DNA of 41,551 nt from Actinomycetota bacterium (GTDB lineage: Bacteria; Actinomycetota; Acidimicrobiia; Acidimicrobiales; Ilumatobacteraceae): positions 1-41,551 of the forward strand of contig SYAZ01000071.1 in assembly GCA_005788815.1 (NCBI GenBank), read 5' to 3'. How positions within the stretch are numbered: position 1 is the stretch's first letter; every line of letters begins with the position of its first letter. Under the pieces are notes generated by a model. It saw nothing but the letters and a program-made list of their open reading frames with translations, searched no databases and was not told the origin of the DNA. Both the position numbers and the translations under genes were made by a program. Positions 6,613 through 15,815 of this stretch are shown piece by piece.

Positions 6613-7506
6613 CTATTTTTTGTCGGTCAAGAGTTCTGCGAGTTCGGTAAATGCTCGTGAATACGGGGACGATTTACGCCACACGAGGCCCACTGTCCTA
6701 TTTGGAGGGACGCCAACAAACTTGCGTGTCACGATGCCTCGGCCAGGTGCTGCTTCGATCTTTACAGCGCACTCAGGCAGCAATGTCACACCTAAACCTG
6801 CTGCGACCATCTGTGCAAGCGTTGCCATGCTTGTTGCCTGCACCTCACTTGGTTCACTAAACACCAAGCGACACACATTTGTCACTTGATCTCGCAAGCA
6901 ATGGCCCTCCTCCAAAAGAATGACTCGCTCATCACGCAAGACATCTAATTGCAGCGGAGATTTTCCCTTCGCCAATGGATGTGACTCAGACATCGCGAGG
7001 ACAAAGTTGTCTAACCCAATTGATTCTGTTGCGAATTCTTCTGAACCAATTGGCAATGCCAGAAGTCCAAGATCAATAACTCCACGACGAAGAGAATTAA
7101 GAAGATTATTTGTCTGTAGTTCATGAATATGAAGTTCGGCTCTTGGGTGAGTGGCCATTACAAATCGCACAACGTTTGGCAAAACGTACGGAGCAAGTGT
7201 GGGAATGACTCCGAGACCGATTCGCCCGCGCAAATGCTCCCCTTCGTAATGAGTTGTGCCCACGAGGTCGTTCATCTCTCGCAAAATGATGCGAGCGCGT
7301 TCCACCACCTCAGTACCTTGAGTTGTAAGAAGCGCTCCACGAGATGACCGCTCAAACAGAGTGACACCTAGCTTTCGTTCAAGTTCCTTGATCTGAGCGC
7401 TGAGAGCTGGCTGCGAGACGAACTCTTCATCAGCGGCGGCCCCAAATGTGCCGGCATCGGCAATGGCCACGAGGTAACGCAGTTGTTGGAAGGTCGGCCA
7501 TGACAT
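6613..7506 (-). CDS. oxyR: OxyR, LysR-type peroxide sensor
   Basis: A 297-residue LysR-family activator. The N-terminal winged helix-turn-helix covers residues about 5-62 (FQQLRYLVAIADAGTFGAAA). The redox pair is conserved: C203 and C212 in EEGHCLRDQVTNVC, with the same 9-residue spacing as Cys199 and Cys208 of E. coli OxyR, so it should sense H2O2 by disulfide formation. It is divergent from katG with a very short spacer, the classic arrangement for an OxyR-controlled catalase-peroxidase. Rubrerythrin lies directly downstream on the same strand and is likely part of the same response. Confidence 0.92.
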   Translation of the reverse strand: MSWPTFQQLRYLVAIADAGTFGAAADEEFVSQPALSAQIKELERKLGVTLFERSSRGALLTTQGTEVVERARIILREMNDLVGTTHYEGEHLRGRIGLGVIPTLAPYVLPNVVRFVMATHPRAELHIHELQTNNLLNSLRRGVIDLGLLALPIGSEEFATESIGLDNFVLAMSESHPLAKGKSPLQLDVLRDERVILLEEGHCLRDQVTNVCRLVFSEPSEVQATSMATLAQMVAAGLGVTLLPECAVKIEAAPGRGIVTRKFVGVPPNRTVGLVWRKSSPYSRAFTELAELLTDKK

Positions 7507-9740
<2,234 letters not shown>

Positions 9741-9801: not shown

Positions 9802-11481
9802 ATGCCTTCTCAGCCTTTTGACCGCTCGTCTGCCTTACGGAACCTCGAAAACACCGAGTTCGACATGGTCGTAGTCGGTGGCGGTATCACGGGAGCTGGC
9901 GTCGCTTTAGACGCCGCTTCACGTGGCCTTCGCATAGCTCTCCTTGAACGTGATGACTTTGCGTCAGGCACATCATCGAAGTCGTCGAAATTGATTCATG
10001 GCGGTCTGCGTTACCTCCAACAAGGCGACGTACGGCTCGTGTATCAAGCACTTCGTGAGCGAAAAAGATTGCGCCGCAACGCACCTCATCTCGTTCACGT
10101 ACTCCCCTTCATGATTCCGATCCTTACGAAAGATGGAGTCGTCTCACGCAAGATTGCCCGTGCACTCGGTTCTGCAATGTGGATGTATGACCTCACAGGT
10201 GGATGGCGCATTGGTCGCCTCCATCGTCGCCTCAAGGCTGACAAAGCATTTGCTCATCTCCCCACCATGCCAAGACAAAAACTTGCTTCGGCATATTTGT
10301 ATTACGACGCAGAAGCAGACGACGCACGATTGGTGGTCTCGGTGTTGCGAACCGCAGCAGATAACGGTGCAACTATCGCCAATCGATGCGAAGTAGTAAC
10401 CATCGATTCACCATCACGCACAAGCCATGTGATCACCGCGCGAGACACCATCTCTGGTGCCATACTGCGCATTTCCACACGTTCTGTTGTCAACGCTTCC
10501 GGCGTATGGGCAGACGATGTTCGTGCGCTTGACGAGAACTCTCACCCAGACACCATTCGCCCTGCAAAAGGCGTACACCTCACAGTGCCCTGGGAAAAAG
10601 TGCGCAACGACATCGCAGTCGTCATTCCCGTGCCGCGCGATCGCCGCAGTTTGTTTGTAGTGCCATGGATTGCCAAGGAAGACGGCACATACCAATACAC
10701 ATACATCGGCACAACAGACACCGATTACAAAGGCCCAGTAAACGACCCACAGTGCACACGTGACGACATTGAATATGTCCTTGCAGCATTGAATGCAAGC
10801 GTTACTACCGATGTCACTTTTGAAGATGTCAGTGGTGTGTGGTCGGGACTACGTCCACTTGTAAAGATGGACGACACTTCTGCAAAGGCAGGAAGAACAG
10901 CCGACCTCAGTCGCCGACACAGAGTGTTTACATCGGACAATGGTGTTGTCACCGTGACAGGTGGAAAACTTACGACGTACCGCGAGATGGCTGAAGACGC
11001 AGTTAATGAAGCATGCGAATTACTTAACGTAAAGACCAAGAGTCGAACTCGCCGTCTTTCGCTTCGCGGCGCTAGCGGCAAACGCGCCCGTTCAACACAT
11101 GCTGATCGCCACCTCGATGGACGCTTTGGAAGTGACTCATCAATGGTGAAACAACTCATTGAGCAAGATCCGACACTTGGTCAACCACTCGTTCCTGGCT
11201 TGCCCTACTTGCGTGCCGAAGCAGTGTTTGCAGTGACGCATGAGATGGCTACATCCATTGACGACATCTTGACTCGCCGTACACGTTCTCGTTTATTAGA
11301 TCGCAAAGCATGTGTTGCGGCCACCCCAGCACTTGCAGACTTGGTTGCTCCGTTGCTTTCGTGGACACCCGAACAGCGCGCAGCAAATATTGCAATTTTC
11401 TTAGACGAGTGCGCACGCGAAGATGCAGCAGCACAAGTGACAGAGCAAGAATTCATCGATTCATACGGGGGCACCAAGTGA
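9802..11481 (+). CDS. glpD: FAD-dependent glycerol-3-phosphate dehydrogenase
   Basis: A 559-residue membrane-associated flavoprotein that oxidises glycerol-3-phosphate to dihydroxyacetone phosphate (DHAP) and passes electrons to quinone. The FAD dinucleotide-binding motif is VVGGGITGAGVALDAASRG, followed by the GlpD signature SSKLIHGGLRYLQQGD and, further on, GVWSGLRPLV and TVTGGKLTTYREMAEDA. The open frame begins at TTG 9781, but ATG 9802 fits both the family start and a -10 hexamer 7 nt upstream. The last codons overlap the GTG of the next gene (GTGA), so it leads a three-gene operon with an alkyl-DHAP-synthase-like protein that would use its product. Confidence 0.9.
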   Translation: MPSQPFDRSSALRNLENTEFDMVVVGGGITGAGVALDAASRGLRIALLERDDFASGTSSKSSKLIHGGLRYLQQGDVRLVYQALRERKRLRRNAPHLVHVLPFMIPILTKDGVVSRKIARALGSAMWMYDLTGGWRIGRLHRRLKADKAFAHLPTMPRQKLASAYLYYDAEADDARLVVSVLRTAADNGATIANRCEVVTIDSPSRTSHVITARDTISGAILRISTRSVVNASGVWADDVRALDENSHPDTIRPAKGVHLTVPWEKVRNDIAVVIPVPRDRRSLFVVPWIAKEDGTYQYTYIGTTDTDYKGPVNDPQCTRDDIEYVLAALNASVTTDVTFEDVSGVWSGLRPLVKMDDTSAKAGRTADLSRRHRVFTSDNGVVTVTGGKLTTYREMAEDAVNEACELLNVKTKSRTRRLSLRGASGKRARSTHADRHLDGRFGSDSSMVKQLIEQDPTLGQPLVPGLPYLRAEAVFAVTHEMATSIDDILTRRTRSRLLDRKACVAATPALADLVAPLLSWTPEQRAANIAIFLDECAREDAAAQVTEQEFIDSYGGTK

Positions 11482-12956
11482 GCAAGTACACATTTCAGAC
11501 CGCCACAACTGACCCGATTGAGTTTGGTGGCGACCCTGCACTTGCAACTGCCCACCTCTCCACGAATGCACCTGCACTTTCTCAGGACGACGTGACTGCG
11601 CTGTCATCCATTTGCGATACGAGTACTGACGCAGTCGACCGTGCGAAACATGGCCGCGACTGGTGGCCACTTTCCATGACTTGGTCATTGCGAAATGAAG
11701 TACCGCAGATTCCTCATGTGGTGTGTCGTCCGCGCACAACAAAAGAAGTTTCCTTGTTGTTGGCATATTGCAACGACCGTTCCATCGCCGTCACCCCATC
11801 GGGTGGTCGCAGCGGAGTATGTGGTGCCGCAATTCCACTTTCAGCCGGCGTATCACTCGACATGACATTGATGCAGGGAATCGAATCAATCGATGCCATC
11901 TCAGGCGTTGTTGAAGTTCTCTCTGGCACGTTTGGTCCTGATCTTGAAAAAGCAGTGCGTGAGCACGGCTTAACTATTGGCCACTACCCGCAATCATTCG
12001 ATATCGCCACAGTCGGCGGTTGGGTTGCGTGTCGTGGAGCAGGCCAATACTCGACTCGATACGGAAAAATTGAAGACATGGTGCACGCGCTTGAAGCAGT
12101 GCTCGCAGATGGAACTGTCATCACAACTGGCGGCGCGCCAGCCGGCGCTGTTGGCCCAGACCTGTCTCAACTTTTACTTGGCAGCGAAGGAACCCTCGCA
12201 GTAATCACCCGAGTGTGGCTACGTGCACATCCGCTTCCTGAAGTTGAACGGCGTGGCGCCTACACATTCGACACTTTCTCAGAAGGCATCGAAGCATGCC
12301 GACGCATTATCCGTGCCGGAGCGACACCTGCAGTTCTTCGTTTGTATGACGGAGCAGAAAGCAAACGATCACACGGTGGTGACGGAACACGGGCCACCCT
12401 TCTTGTTCTTGACGAAGGAACGGAATCGATCGTCGATGGAACAATGGCCGTTGTTCACGACACCTGCTCTGACATGGGTGCAGCAACTGGTGACGTGGCA
12501 TTAGTGGAAGCATGGATGCACCATCGCAACGACACAAGCGGCTTGCAAGGTCTCACGCGCAAGGGTTATGTGGTGGACACTATGGAAGTCGCTGCAAATT
12601 GGGGACACCTTGATTCAGTGGTTGAGGCAGTAGAAACAGCCATGCTCGCAATCCCATATGCAAGATCTGCAACATGCCACCTCTCGCATAGCTATATAGA
12701 AGGTGCGTGCGTGTATTTCACATTTGCAGCAAATCCGCCCGCTGAAGAATTCGAATCCACGTACCTTGCATTGTGGAAAGCAGGACAAACCTCAGCGTTG
12801 TCTTCGGGTGCAAACTTGTCGCATCACCACGGAGTCGGATACAGCCGTGCTGCATTTATGGAACAAGCACTCGGTTCATCGCTCGGAGTTTTGCGGTCCG
12901 TAAAGAAGGCACTTGATCCTCGAGGAATCTTGAACCCAGGCAAACTTGGGCTATGA
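11478..12956 (+). CDS. FAD-binding oxidase, alkyl-DHAP synthase (AGPS)-like
   Basis: A 492-residue flavoprotein of the vanillyl-alcohol-oxidase fold. The FAD-binding loop reads PSGGRSGVCGA, the second FAD region is GGWVACRGAGQYSTRYG, and near the C-terminus are SHSYIEGACVYFTF and a triple histidine, LSHHHGVGYSR, both hallmarks of alkyldihydroxyacetone-phosphate synthase. The true enzyme swaps the acyl chain of acyl-DHAP for a fatty alcohol to make ether lipids; actinobacterial relatives are mostly uncharacterised. The GTG start overlaps the glpD stop, and its own stop overlaps the kinase ATG. The longer open frame back to 11310 is an artefact inside glpD. Whether it makes ether lipids or oxidises another substrate is open. 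Confidence 0.75.
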   Translation: MSKYTFQTATTDPIEFGGDPALATAHLSTNAPALSQDDVTALSSICDTSTDAVDRAKHGRDWWPLSMTWSLRNEVPQIPHVVCRPRTTKEVSLLLAYCNDRSIAVTPSGGRSGVCGAAIPLSAGVSLDMTLMQGIESIDAISGVVEVLSGTFGPDLEKAVREHGLTIGHYPQSFDIATVGGWVACRGAGQYSTRYGKIEDMVHALEAVLADGTVITTGGAPAGAVGPDLSQLLLGSEGTLAVITRVWLRAHPLPEVERRGAYTFDTFSEGIEACRRIIRAGATPAVLRLYDGAESKRSHGGDGTRATLLVLDEGTESIVDGTMAVVHDTCSDMGAATGDVALVEAWMHHRNDTSGLQGLTRKGYVVDTMEVAANWGHLDSVVEAVETAMLAIPYARSATCHLSHSYIEGACVYFTFAANPPAEEFESTYLALWKAGQTSALSSGANLSHHHGVGYSRAAFMEQALGSSLGVLRSVKKALDPRGILNPGKLGL

Positions 12957-14413
12957 GATCACTTGTTATTGATGTGGGCACAAGCGGACTGCGTGCCGCT
13001 GTCGTTGAAGCCGATGCATCAGTAAGCAATCTGCACTACGAAGAGTGTGCGCCGCACTCACCTGTCGGCGGACTTGTTGAGTTTGATGCAGTTGCCATGT
13101 ACACCGCTGTCAAACGAGTATCACTACTCGCACTGCAGTCAGGCCCCGTGCAATCAGTCGGCATCACTAACCAGCGTGCTTCTGCAGTTGCATGGAGAGC
13201 ATCTACTGGTCAACCAATTGGGCCGGCCATCGGTTGGCAAGACTTGCGCACTGTTGGCGAATGCATCATGGCTCGCATCGAACACGGCTTCACCTTGGCT
13301 CCAAATCAATCTGCAACAAAATATGCATGGATGCTTGCTAACTACATTGCCGACGAATCAGAACGCAGTAGCGACGACATCCTGATGGGAACAGTTGAAT
13401 CATGGATCGTATGGAATCTCACGCAAGGTAAACACCACGTCACCGACCATACAAATGCTGCAGTAACAGGACTCACCGTTCCCACTGGCACATCATGGAA
13501 TCAGAACGTCATCGATGTTCTGAAACTTCATACACATCAGTTGCCACGCATTGTCGACACCATGGGTTACATCGGCGACGCCACCGACCTTCCAGGTGCG
13601 CCACCGATTCACGCAATGGTGGGTGATCAACAAGGCTCGCTTGTCGGCCAAGGTTGCATCTCTCCTGGCATGACCAAAATTACTTTTGGTACTGGCGGAA
13701 TGCTGAATGTCTTCACTGGGGACCGTGCGCCCGATTCTGCGCGTCGTAACGAAGGTGGGACATTTCCCATCGTCGCATTTAGCCAAAACGGTGCACTGTC
13801 GTACGCCACGGAAGCAATCATGTTGTCGGCAGGAACCAACATCGAATGGCTTCGCGATGACATGGGCCTGATTTCTTCTTCTGCAGAGTCTCACGACATA
13901 GCGTCACAGTGTGAGACCACCGATGGTGTCGTCTATGTTCCAGCGCTTCTCGGTCTCGGCACCCCCTTTTGGGATTACGGCGCACGTGGATCATTGTTTG
14001 GAATCACTCGAGGCACCACGCGTGCACACATCGTGCGAGCTGTTGTAGAAGGAGTAGCCCACCGCGGCGTCGATCTTGTAGATGCCGCAGAGAAAGACTC
14101 TGGACTTTCCATTGCTGAACTGCGTATTGATGGCGGCATGAGTCGTAACCCCACGTTTGTTCAGTCGCTTGCCAACGCATCTGGACGACCCGTGCGCGTC
14201 TCGCCCATCACTGAGGCAACCACCCTTGGCGCAGGCTTTCTTGCCGGCACCGCAGCAGGACAATGGTCACACCTAGAAGAGGCAACGAACGCCTCAACTG
14301 GCGCAACCGTTGTTTCACCATTAGGAACTCCAGGCATCTCCCGACAACAATGGGGAGAGGCGGTTTCTCGAAGCCGTTCTTGGATACCCGACCTCTCTGC
14401 GCTGGACTTCTAG
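12953..14413 (+). CDS. FGGY-family carbohydrate kinase, glycerol-kinase-like with altered pocket
   Basis: A 486-residue FGGY kinase, overall closest to glycerol kinase. The phosphate-binding start DVGTSGLR and the catalytic block GDQQGSLVGQG (D225, Q226) are intact, as are FGTGGMLN and LRIDGGMSRN. However, the glycerol contacts change: the NQRE of E. coli GlpK is NQRA here (A76 instead of the glutamate), and the pocket tyrosine in DPYFSGTK is replaced in APNQSATK (N118). About a dozen residues just before that block are missing. The fold and catalytic base suggest an active kinase, but glycerol may not be its substrate. It ends a tight operon with glpD and the AGPS-like gene. Confidence 0.8.
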   Translation: MRSLVIDVGTSGLRAAVVEADASVSNLHYEECAPHSPVGGLVEFDAVAMYTAVKRVSLLALQSGPVQSVGITNQRASAVAWRASTGQPIGPAIGWQDLRTVGECIMARIEHGFTLAPNQSATKYAWMLANYIADESERSSDDILMGTVESWIVWNLTQGKHHVTDHTNAAVTGLTVPTGTSWNQNVIDVLKLHTHQLPRIVDTMGYIGDATDLPGAPPIHAMVGDQQGSLVGQGCISPGMTKITFGTGGMLNVFTGDRAPDSARRNEGGTFPIVAFSQNGALSYATEAIMLSAGTNIEWLRDDMGLISSSAESHDIASQCETTDGVVYVPALLGLGTPFWDYGARGSLFGITRGTTRAHIVRAVVEGVAHRGVDLVDAAEKDSGLSIAELRIDGGMSRNPTFVQSLANASGRPVRVSPITEATTLGAGFLAGTAAGQWSHLEEATNASTGATVVSPLGTPGISRQQWGEAVSRSRSWIPDLSALDF

Positions 14414-14456
14414 TCTTAGAGAGCGAATAACGCCGAAACGATAAAGGATGCCCCCC

Positions 14457-15026
14457 GTGGACAATCACCAAGTTGAATCCCCAGAGTCGTCAGTGACCAC
14501 ACGTCGCCGCCTCCTCTCTGCCCTAGTTGCTGGTGGCGCTCTTGCGTCTGCTGCGCCAATACTTGCCGGCCGAGCATCTGCTGCCGGAGATGGAACCAAT
14601 GCTCCATCTCGCGACCCTCGCGACAACAATGCGCTCAACAACGCTCTTGCACGTGAAGCACGAATGGTCGGCACGTATCGCTTGGCAGTTGCTGCAGCAG
14701 CCGCCGATGATGAAGTAGCTGGCTTAACGTTGATTCTCGATCATCACATTGCCTATGTACAGGCGATCAAGGGCTACCTCGGACCAGATGCAGAGGCCGC
14801 TCCGGAAACTCCATTGTCAAATCCGTCAGGTTCAGTCAAGTCGATGGCATCTTCGTTGGCACAACTTGAAGACCAAACCGCAACAATCCACACCGATATT
14901 CTTGCAATTCTTTCTGGCATGGGTGGCGCAAAAATAATTGCATCTATTGTCATCGTCGAAGCACGACACGCAGCAGCACTCAGCGTGTTCTCTGGTCTGA
15001 CCCCACTTGCAGCATCTGGAAACTAA
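14457..15026 (+). CDS. Tat-exported ferritin-like protein
   Basis: A 189-residue secreted protein. The N-terminus has a twin-arginine signal (TTRRRLLSALVAGGALA) with an AXA cleavage region near GRASAAG. The mature part is a four-helix ferritin-like domain with YRLAVAAAAADDE and LDHHIAYVQ in the first half and an E-x2-H pair (VEARHAAAL) in the second, so some metal ligands are present. I choose GTG 14457 because AAAGGA (14443-14448) lies 8 nt before it; the ATG at 14448 overlaps that site. It is followed 12 nt later by a second ferritin-like gene, so the pair is probably co-expressed. Function is unknown. Confidence 0.75.
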   Translation: MDNHQVESPESSVTTRRRLLSALVAGGALASAAPILAGRASAAGDGTNAPSRDPRDNNALNNALAREARMVGTYRLAVAAAAADDEVAGLTLILDHHIAYVQAIKGYLGPDAEAAPETPLSNPSGSVKSMASSLAQLEDQTATIHTDILAILSGMGGAKIIASIVIVEARHAAALSVFSGLTPLAASGN

Positions 15027-15038
15027 GGAATCGACATC

Positions 15039-15815
15039 ATGACGAACTCCACCCCACACAACATCAACCGTCGCACCTTGTTGCGCTCCACTGGCATCAT
15101 CGCTGCATCAGGCGCAGTTCTTGCCGCGTGCGGCTCAAGCAGTGCTTCAAAGACAATTACTCGCATTGGTGAAACACCTGAAATCACAAAACTCGGCGAT
15201 GCCACTGTTACAGATGTCGTACTGCTTCGAACAGCAATGTCTGTTGAAACTATGGCTCGCATCATTTTGACTGACACAACTTTTGCATCGTTGGCCGAAA
15301 AGACTTCTGCTGCTGTTGTTGCTGGTTTTGCCAGAGCTCACACAGCACACCTGACAAATCTTCGCTCACTCATTTCTTCACGTGGCGGCGAAGCGTATGA
15401 AGAGCCAAACGAAAAGCTCATGGCCTCATATGGAACACAAGCACTTGGTCTTGTTGCCGACGGAAAAAATCCCGACGATGTCCTCCCTCTCACCCTTGCG
15501 ATTGAAACCCTCGTTGCATCTATGTACCAATACTTCGTTTCACTCACAAACGAGCCAGCACTTCGTGCCAGCATGATTCGCATGGGAGCCCAGTCGTCAC
15601 GTGCAGCAGCAGTAACAGCACAGTTGATTAATCCAGGTATCGGCGCATTTGCTCCGGGCGTCGATAAAGACGGTGTGGCAACGGTTGCAACCCTTCCGAG
15701 CGCATTTGGAGCACTCAACGCAGTGCAAGTTCAACTCGGGCCAGTGAATCCTGAAACAGGAAGTCGCACCACTGTCTCGATGGACACTCCAAGCCTCAAC
15801 AGCTTTATTTACTAG
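15039..15815 (+). CDS. Tat-exported ferritin-like lipoprotein
   Basis: A 258-residue exported protein. The twin-arginine signal NRRTLLRSTGIIAASG runs into a lipobox, VLAAC, so it is probably anchored on the outer face of the membrane through the cysteine. The remainder is predicted helical and ferritin-like, but the E-x2-H metal signatures are weak or lost: the first half reads ARAHTAH and the second MGAQSSRAAA. It may be a metal-free partner of the preceding protein. AAGGA ten bases before the ATG is the ribosome-binding site. Function is unknown. Confidence 0.72.
   Translation: MTNSTPHNINRRTLLRSTGIIAASGAVLAACGSSSASKTITRIGETPEITKLGDATVTDVVLLRTAMSVETMARIILTDTTFASLAEKTSAAVVAGFARAHTAHLTNLRSLISSRGGEAYEEPNEKLMASYGTQALGLVADGKNPDDVLPLTLAIETLVASMYQYFVSLTNEPALRASMIRMGAQSSRAAAVTAQLINPGIGAFAPGVDKDGVATVATLPSAFGALNAVQVQLGPVNPETGSRTTVSMDTPSLNSFIY

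Follow-up and report, generated by a model that had tools for sequence, protein, structure and literature searches.

What does a kinase of the FGGY family phosphorylate if it has the fold of glycerol kinase (GlpK), lacks residues with which GlpK holds glycerol and is encoded in one operon with GlpD and an enzyme resembling alkyl-dihydroxyacetone-phosphate (alkyl-DHAP) synthase (AGPS)? This question is raised by contig SYAZ01000071.1 of assembly GCA_005788815.1 (41,551 nt, referred to at its full length as the window), which is contig 62 of the 1.53 Mb, 68% complete genome of a member of the Ilumatobacteraceae (Acidimicrobiales), and in which the kinase gene occupies positions 12953–14413 of the forward strand (486 residues, ATG start). 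By alignment, structure prediction and genome surveys we found three of the five signature residues of GlpK replaced, and we tentatively assign the kinase to a glycerol bearing a substituent on O1. New in this work are the consistent lack of glycerol-binding residues in kinases of AGPS operons, the order-wide presence of such kinases in Acidimicrobiales and the reassignment that results. Loci and genomes of our collection are cited by L and G numbers.

Results

Domain search identified FGGY_N and FGGY_C in the open reading frame (ORF) of the kinase, and the best curated model was that for glycerol kinase, TIGR01311, with 374 bits lying below its cut-off of 590.35. The predicted structure (mean predicted local distance difference test score, pLDDT, of 88.9) was aligned by VIA-align to the top glycerol kinases (PDB 2dpn, 3g25 and 3ezw) with Z of ~46 over ~470 residues, compared to Z of 34–39 for xylulokinase, gluconate kinase, autoinducer-2 kinase and rhamnulokinase. 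The kinase thus has the FGGY fold of GlpK, and GlpK enzymes are its nearest solved structures; Foldseek and VIA-align returned FGGY folds with GlpK first and without any hint of the substrate. In a phylum-wide search of 296 genomes, all rows above 43% identity to the kinase belonged to the window's class, with GlpK-like matches at ~35–41% ranking below the class members.

The GlpK signature consists of R83, E84, Y135, D245 and F270 and is identical among GlpK clusters; four of these residues bond glycerol hydroxyls and F270 packs on the glycerol backbone (available part of PMC3245297). Aligned to E. coli GlpK (from NC_000913.3, numbered without Met), the kinase keeps R83 as R75, W103 as W95 and the catalytic D245-Q246 as D225-Q226 (codons 13625–13630), while E84 is replaced by A76, Y135 by N118 and F270 by M250, so that three of the five signature residues differ and the signature reads R, A, N, D, M. 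The other codons concerned lie at 13175–13180 (R75-A76, NQRE to NQRA), 13304–13306 (N118) and 13700–13702 (M250, GTGCF to GTGGM), all on the forward strand and computed from the ORF start. Since the span from W95 to N118 comprises 24 residues versus 33 in E. coli GlpK, with nine residues absent before N118, the short deletion in this region is real. The original prediction had read the retained R75 and D225-Q226, the changes to A76 and N118 and a short deletion, all of which alignment and orthologues confirm; the third change, at M250, was absent from it. Across 28 aligned sequences (the window's and 27 orthologues), R75, W95, N118, D225, Q226 and M250 never vary and A76 reaches at least 90% conservation, which is more than chance drift. 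An assembly error as the source of the pocket change is ruled out by the orthologues with the same residues. As the residues gripping free glycerol are missing and the kinase shares a widespread three-gene operon with an enzyme of ether-lipid type, the substrate is probably glycerol with a substituent such as an alkyl chain.

The two genes upstream lie on the same strand and overlap. GlpD-type glycerol-3-phosphate dehydrogenase (9802–11481, forward strand; DAO and DAO_C domains) shares GTGA (11478–11481) with the GTG-initiated gene of the AGPS-like flavin adenine dinucleotide (FAD) enzyme (11478–12956, forward strand; PF01565 and PF02913), which in turn shares ATGA (12953–12956) with the kinase gene, making a tight operon. 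By sequence, the nearest solved structures of the AGPS-like protein are the alkyl-DHAP synthases 2uuu and 4bby. AGPS works through the chemistry of an FAD–DHAP adduct, and the Arg, Tyr and His-His-His that we take to be its catalytic residues are kept in all 29 aligned AGPS-like sequences, including partners of quite different kinases; the adduct chemistry is therefore likely intact. Six GlpD residues, chosen from the E. coli structure as what we take to be the substrate pocket, are kept in the window's protein and altogether in 26 of 27 sequences besides E. coli, L096 reading X at two of them.

That the genome might be missing a second GlpK is refuted by a 490-residue GlpK with full signature on contig 59. 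Plain glycerol can hence be handled without the gene at 12953–14413, in line with the original prediction. At 36–43% identity, a further GlpK-like match was present in at least 63 of the 68 kinase-bearing genomes described below, with a single match listed for G056. All 15 fetched class copies of canonical GlpK read REWYDQF at the pocket positions, from which other FGGY paralogues of the class (L164, L165, L166) deviate.

To describe the distribution we counted the kinase by eye from rows with E <1e-100 and the AGPS-like gene, likewise by eye, at E <1e-70 in 81 genomes including the window's own. Among the matches listed, a kinase of the window's type occurs in 68 of the 81; kinase and AGPS-like gene are both present in 62, the kinase only in six, the AGPS-like gene only in three and neither in ten. 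Four of the nine discordant genomes end at contig edges, namely G012 and G049 with the kinase only and G014 and G035 with the AGPS-like gene only; G046 is the third of the latter kind, and the other four kinase-only genomes do not end at such edges. The copies of two of these four (L119 in G043, L116 in G044), the only two of the lone copies that were read, retain the pocket signature, and in G043 the ferritin-like gene pair described below remains next to the kinase although glpD and AGPS are missing. Contigs with close kinase relatives are mostly titled Ilumatobacteraceae, Acidimicrobiaceae, Actinomycetota or acIV. In the named genome collection, the kinase is preceded by the AGPS-like gene in 30 of 33 loci and in 29 of 33 by GlpD as well; of the remaining three loci, two start within the kinase gene and one, from Halieaceae, holds a canonical GlpK. 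Four loci titled Bifidobacterium breve (L036, L037, L039, L053) carry the Acidimicrobiales-type operon with 58–76% kinase identity, and their organism name looks wrong. In L045 (5558–5962) and L050 (5561–5986) a membrane-like protein of 135–142 residues, in L045 weakly matching DUF3792, is encoded between AGPS and kinase.

The link between pocket and neighbourhood was scored on 123 distinct kinase genes in the fetched loci, with an AGPS-like gene within 5 kb counted as linkage. At the position of E84, the 61 AGPS-linked GlpK-type kinases without exception carry A (56), S (4) or T (1), and none has Tyr at Y135; the 58 kinase genes without AGPS in their stretch have E84 in 50 cases, A in seven and a truncation there in one, and Tyr at Y135 in 47. 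Four AGPS-linked XylB-type kinases (L103, L105, L137, L138) were kept out of the 61; the kinase of L140 (Enterococcus gilvus) diverges too far for an alignment of the pocket and stands outside the counts and the second tree, L026 has no N-terminus and is unscored at E84, and L101, from an Arthrobacter plasmid, in which kinase and AGPS-like gene are each split over two frames, is outside the linkage count. The expectation that homologues in glpD-AGPS operons share the change holds at E84, where six further kinases read S, G or A, and fails for N118, which gives way to G, Q, V, A or S in kinases from outside Acidimicrobiia. On a tree of 67 rows, built without the two trait columns, the residue at E84 needs at least two changes. 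One of them falls inside the canonical GlpK clade (98% SH-aLRT support), in a group (99%) that unites AGPS-linked kinases of Microbacterium and L087 with the unlinked L162 and L163. Outside this clade the tree is compatible with a small residue or with E84 as ancestral, its branches being long and its deep order unsure. The residues are replaced, as originally read, but the polarity implied in calling them lost is not borne out, since the tree does not settle the ancestral state. The linkage between E84 and AGPS is a strong pattern resting on few independent events. The unlinked GlpK-like kinases of L162 (6035–7759) and L163 (5556–7154), with A at both E84 and Y135 and no AGPS nearby, lie among ORFs resembling an iron–sulfur protein and acyl-CoA dehydrogenase, as judged by eye.

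The glpD–AGPS–kinase trio recurs in Paracoccus jeotgali and Novosphingobium, with the kinase first in Cupriavidus metallidurans and Burkholderia arboris, and with one gene in between on a Microbacterium plasmid. We fetched eight regions from the order to which a Halieaceae genome belongs. In six of them an FGGY kinase lies next to the AGPS-like gene, these kinases reading S, G, A, A, A and A at E84, and four of the eight contain the complete trio (L214, L215, L217, L218). An order-wide search for the AGPS-like gene at 1e-30 gave matches in 125 of 390 genomes, many of them probably other FAD oxidases; a class-wide search with the gene of the Halieaceae genome at E 1e-60 found none in 229 genomes. 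From 95 plasmid records with an AGPS-like gene, 14 regions were examined, of which 11 show an FGGY kinase of some type beside it and, with the other kinase of L136, 12 a metabolite kinase. Ten actinobacterial AGPS regions have no FGGY neighbour. In three of these a YegS/DagK lipid kinase directly follows AGPS (L093, L094, L096), in L093 with GlpD and an alpha/beta hydrolase alongside, and in three more it lies within 2.5 kb (L088, L090, L091); L086, L092, L095 and L097 were not family-searched, and YegS/DagK is unconfirmed there.

Around the trio, Paracoccus jeotgali encodes an aldehyde dehydrogenase, an iron alcohol dehydrogenase and enoyl-CoA hydratases, L214 an AMP-ligase and a CoA-transferase, and Cupriavidus a glycerol 3-phosphate antiterminator, a thioesterase and an AMP-ligase. 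Elsewhere the AGPS-like gene is found together with XylB-type kinases and sugar ABC transporters (Paracoccus contaminans, Roseibium, Shinella), as in L103 (7031–9989, with the AGPS catalytic residues kept) and L105 (6995–9944), with PdxA and a four-carbon acid sugar kinase (Methylobacterium), as in L136 (5947–9562, catalytic residues likewise kept), or with another FGGY kinase and glycerol dehydrogenase (Enterococcus gilvus). The PdxA- and XylB-type arrangements are possible sister cassettes for other substrates.

In the window, the operon is followed on the forward strand by two ferritin-like genes (PF13668; 14448–15026 and 15039–15815). This pair (14448–15815) accompanies the operon in many Acidimicrobiales loci, and a role in the pathway is unlikely. 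Directly upstream of glpD lie an oxyR-like gene and katG (6613–9740), the latter named by eye and from a KATG match; in L045 and L050 this place is taken by rubrerythrin, a Fur/PerR-like gene (by eye) and an iron–sulfur protein. With peroxide defence beside a GlpD/GlpO-type enzyme, this enzyme may make hydrogen peroxide.

Discussion

A kinase opened on the O1 side of the glycerol pocket, together with GlpD and AGPS, fits a 1-O-substituted glycerol, and among the substrates that the original prediction had considered, one of the alkyl-glycerol type agrees best with the kinase's neighbours. A kinase and a dehydrogenase beside an AGPS-like gene could make a DHAP-type phosphorylated ketone, the substrate type of AGPS. 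As the best explanation, held tentatively and at somewhat less than even confidence, we propose that the kinase, GlpD and the AGPS-like enzyme act one after the other on a 1-O-substituted glycerol, with a 1-O-alkyl (or aryl) glycerol ether as the likeliest substrate, and probably cleave it to DHAP; as part of this whole, and to the same degree, the kinase would not be a second glycerol kinase. The kinase would phosphorylate the free end (sn-3) of a glycerol already substituted on O1, GlpD would then oxidise C2 to give a 1-O-substituted DHAP, and the AGPS-like enzyme would swap or hydrolyse the O1 group via the FAD–DHAP adduct, releasing DHAP and an alcohol. What we infer here is the substrate, the order of the steps and their direction. 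Acyltransferases of the GNPAT/PlsB type, searched as GPAT_C with a positive E. coli control and with other acyltransferase families unsearched, were found in one of the 81 genomes, a different one from the window's own 68% complete genome. Because of this scarcity, and because several proteobacterial neighbours look catabolic, we prefer cleavage over synthesis; the neighbours in Paracoccus jeotgali and L214 fit a freed alcohol. We also count in favour of the proposal the lipid kinase that takes the place after AGPS in other actinobacteria and the joint rise of the P. aeruginosa trio with a phospholipase C and a YegS kinase under GliR overproduction (available part of PMC8151288).

In the opposite direction, the operon could serve ether-lipid synthesis, in which a monoacylglycerol kinase gives 1-acyl-glycerol 3-phosphate, GlpD converts it to 1-acyl-DHAP and AGPS exchanges the acyl group for a fatty alcohol, so that acyl-DHAP arises without GNPAT. 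This would account for the missing GNPAT/PlsB-type enzyme, for the conserved AGPS residues and for the lipid kinase found as an alternative, and a lone kinase could survive as a salvage enzyme. However, no fatty-acyl reductase was recognised beside the operon, though no search for one was made, the Paracoccus jeotgali and L214 neighbours look catabolic, and no lipid data were found for these organisms, and we regard synthesis from monoacylglycerol as a serious rival, though a distinctly improbable one. Comparably poor prospects attach to an ordinary glycerol kinase isoenzyme with a changed pocket, active on glycerol and feeding GlpD. GlpK being the closest family and the common operon with GlpD speak for it, as does the published assignment of the Pseudomonas aeruginosa operon (available part of PMC8151288), in which this is the printed role of PA3024; a canonical GlpK is nevertheless present in the genome, N118 and M250 are invariant in the 28 aligned sequences in a manner unlike drift, and 374 bits stand against the TIGR01311 cut-off of 590.

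The kinase might also act on dihydroxyacetone or another small polyol or ketose, with the AGPS-like enzyme and GlpD as neighbours without a shared pathway. Four relatives retain it with neither AGPS nor a close GlpD, and dihydroxyacetone phosphate would need neither enzyme; GlpK-like kinases with an altered pocket are moreover known in transketolase operons (L182, L183). These kinases retain E84, however, and the order glpD–AGPS–kinase is kept, with overlapping genes here and recurrence in other phyla, which leaves this reading unlikely. Least of all do we expect a paralogue with weak catalysis or a regulatory role. The differences at three of the five signature residues speak for it, but with the catalytic Asp and the overall fold retained and the gene conserved order-wide, we consider it very improbable indeed.

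Several observations weigh against the proposed cleavage of 1-O-substituted glycerol. In G032, G043, G044 and G062 the kinase is present but AGPS and a close GlpD are not, so that some genomes must make use of the kinase on its own, for salvage or within another route; in G080 it lies on a different contig from glpD-AGPS, and in G313 it comes after GlpD with no AGPS there. No metabolite kinase was recognised beside the AGPS-like gene in L219 and L220 of the Halieaceae genome's order, nor in the plasmid regions of Roseovarius and Rhodococcus (L139, L141), and A at E84 is also found in kinases away from AGPS (L162, L163, L166). Independent pairs gave one for, none against and five uninformative, and the link between pocket and AGPS is consequently not significant after correction for relatedness. 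In the 68% complete genome no second GlpD was detected, and the one present, with its ordinary glycerol-3-phosphate pocket, is not obviously specialised; it probably also serves ordinary glycerol 3-phosphate. Finally, the family-searched neighbours in the window are the two ferritin-like genes and the OxyR-like regulator, without fatty-alcohol genes.

A bolder and, in our estimation, doubtful extension would be a widespread oxygenase-free cleavage of glycerol ethers in bacteria, in which an opened-pocket FGGY kinase would give 1-O-alkylglycerol 3-phosphate, GlpD alkyl-DHAP and the AGPS-like flavoenzyme DHAP and alcohol, with the cassettes of XylB-type and of PdxA/four-carbon acid sugar kinases using the same last step on other substrates. 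The signature residues of GlpK are called remarkably unchanged through evolution (available part of PMC3245297), and here a neighbouring kinase family without three of the five is kept beside true GlpK across an actinobacterial order. If the substrate is an alkylglycerol, this would provide a bacterial gene for alkylglycerol kinase, correct the published glycerol assignment of the Pseudomonas operon type and point to a breakage of glycerol ethers other than by alkylglycerol monooxygenase, which is called the only known glycerol-ether-cleaving enzyme (available part of PMC7911779). Alkylglycerol kinase (EC 2.7.1.93) would catalyse the same reaction as the kinase if our best explanation holds, and no gene is named for it in the accessible text of PMC9131029 and PMC7911779. 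The open-access literature searched, as far as its text was accessible, held no direct match for a bacterial alkylglycerol kinase gene or for this pathway.

Comparison with known systems

The FGGY kinases of transketolase operons (L182, L183), presumably apulose-type, read REWM/LDSS, with E84 kept, M or L at Y135 and DS at D245-Q246, versus RAWNDQM in the window's kinase, which does not share their pattern. In erythritol catabolism, EryA and the GlpD-like EryB combine an FGGY kinase with a GlpD-like dehydrogenase in one operon, which is not known to include an AGPS-like enzyme. EryA is listed in PMC3245297 (available part). With the ether-lipid operon MXAN_1676-1674 of Myxococcus the window shares an AGPS homologue in a short operon (available part of PMC9131029).

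The suggestion of an undescribed pathway has to be withdrawn in so far as the operon type is already in print, as far as the available part of PMC8151288 describes it, for P. aeruginosa PA3026-PA3025-PA3024, where AGPS-like enzyme, GlpD and FGGY kinase likewise share one operon, in the GliR regulon. That operon differs in gene order, in its AraC regulator and in an adjacent YegS kinase; the regulator upstream of the window's glpD is LysR/OxyR-like, compared to the GliR-type AraC regulator of P. aeruginosa, AraC domains being unsearched in the other ORFs of the window. According to the same accessible text, the work on PA3026-PA3024 concerned its regulation, none of its enzymes was assayed, and the kinase was assigned to glycerol phosphorylation; deletion of the operon gave no growth phenotype in the conditions tried, GliR overproduction induces the trio together with the YegS kinase and phospholipase C, and few copies of this type were found in 1748 genomes in a search that included the regulator gene. 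With GlpK itself (TIGR01311; PDB 2dpn, 3g25, 3ezw), finally, the kinase shares the fold, the catalytic Asp-Gln and the pocket Arg and Trp, and it differs in the replaced E84, Y135 and F270, in the nine-residue deletion and in a score below the family cut-off.

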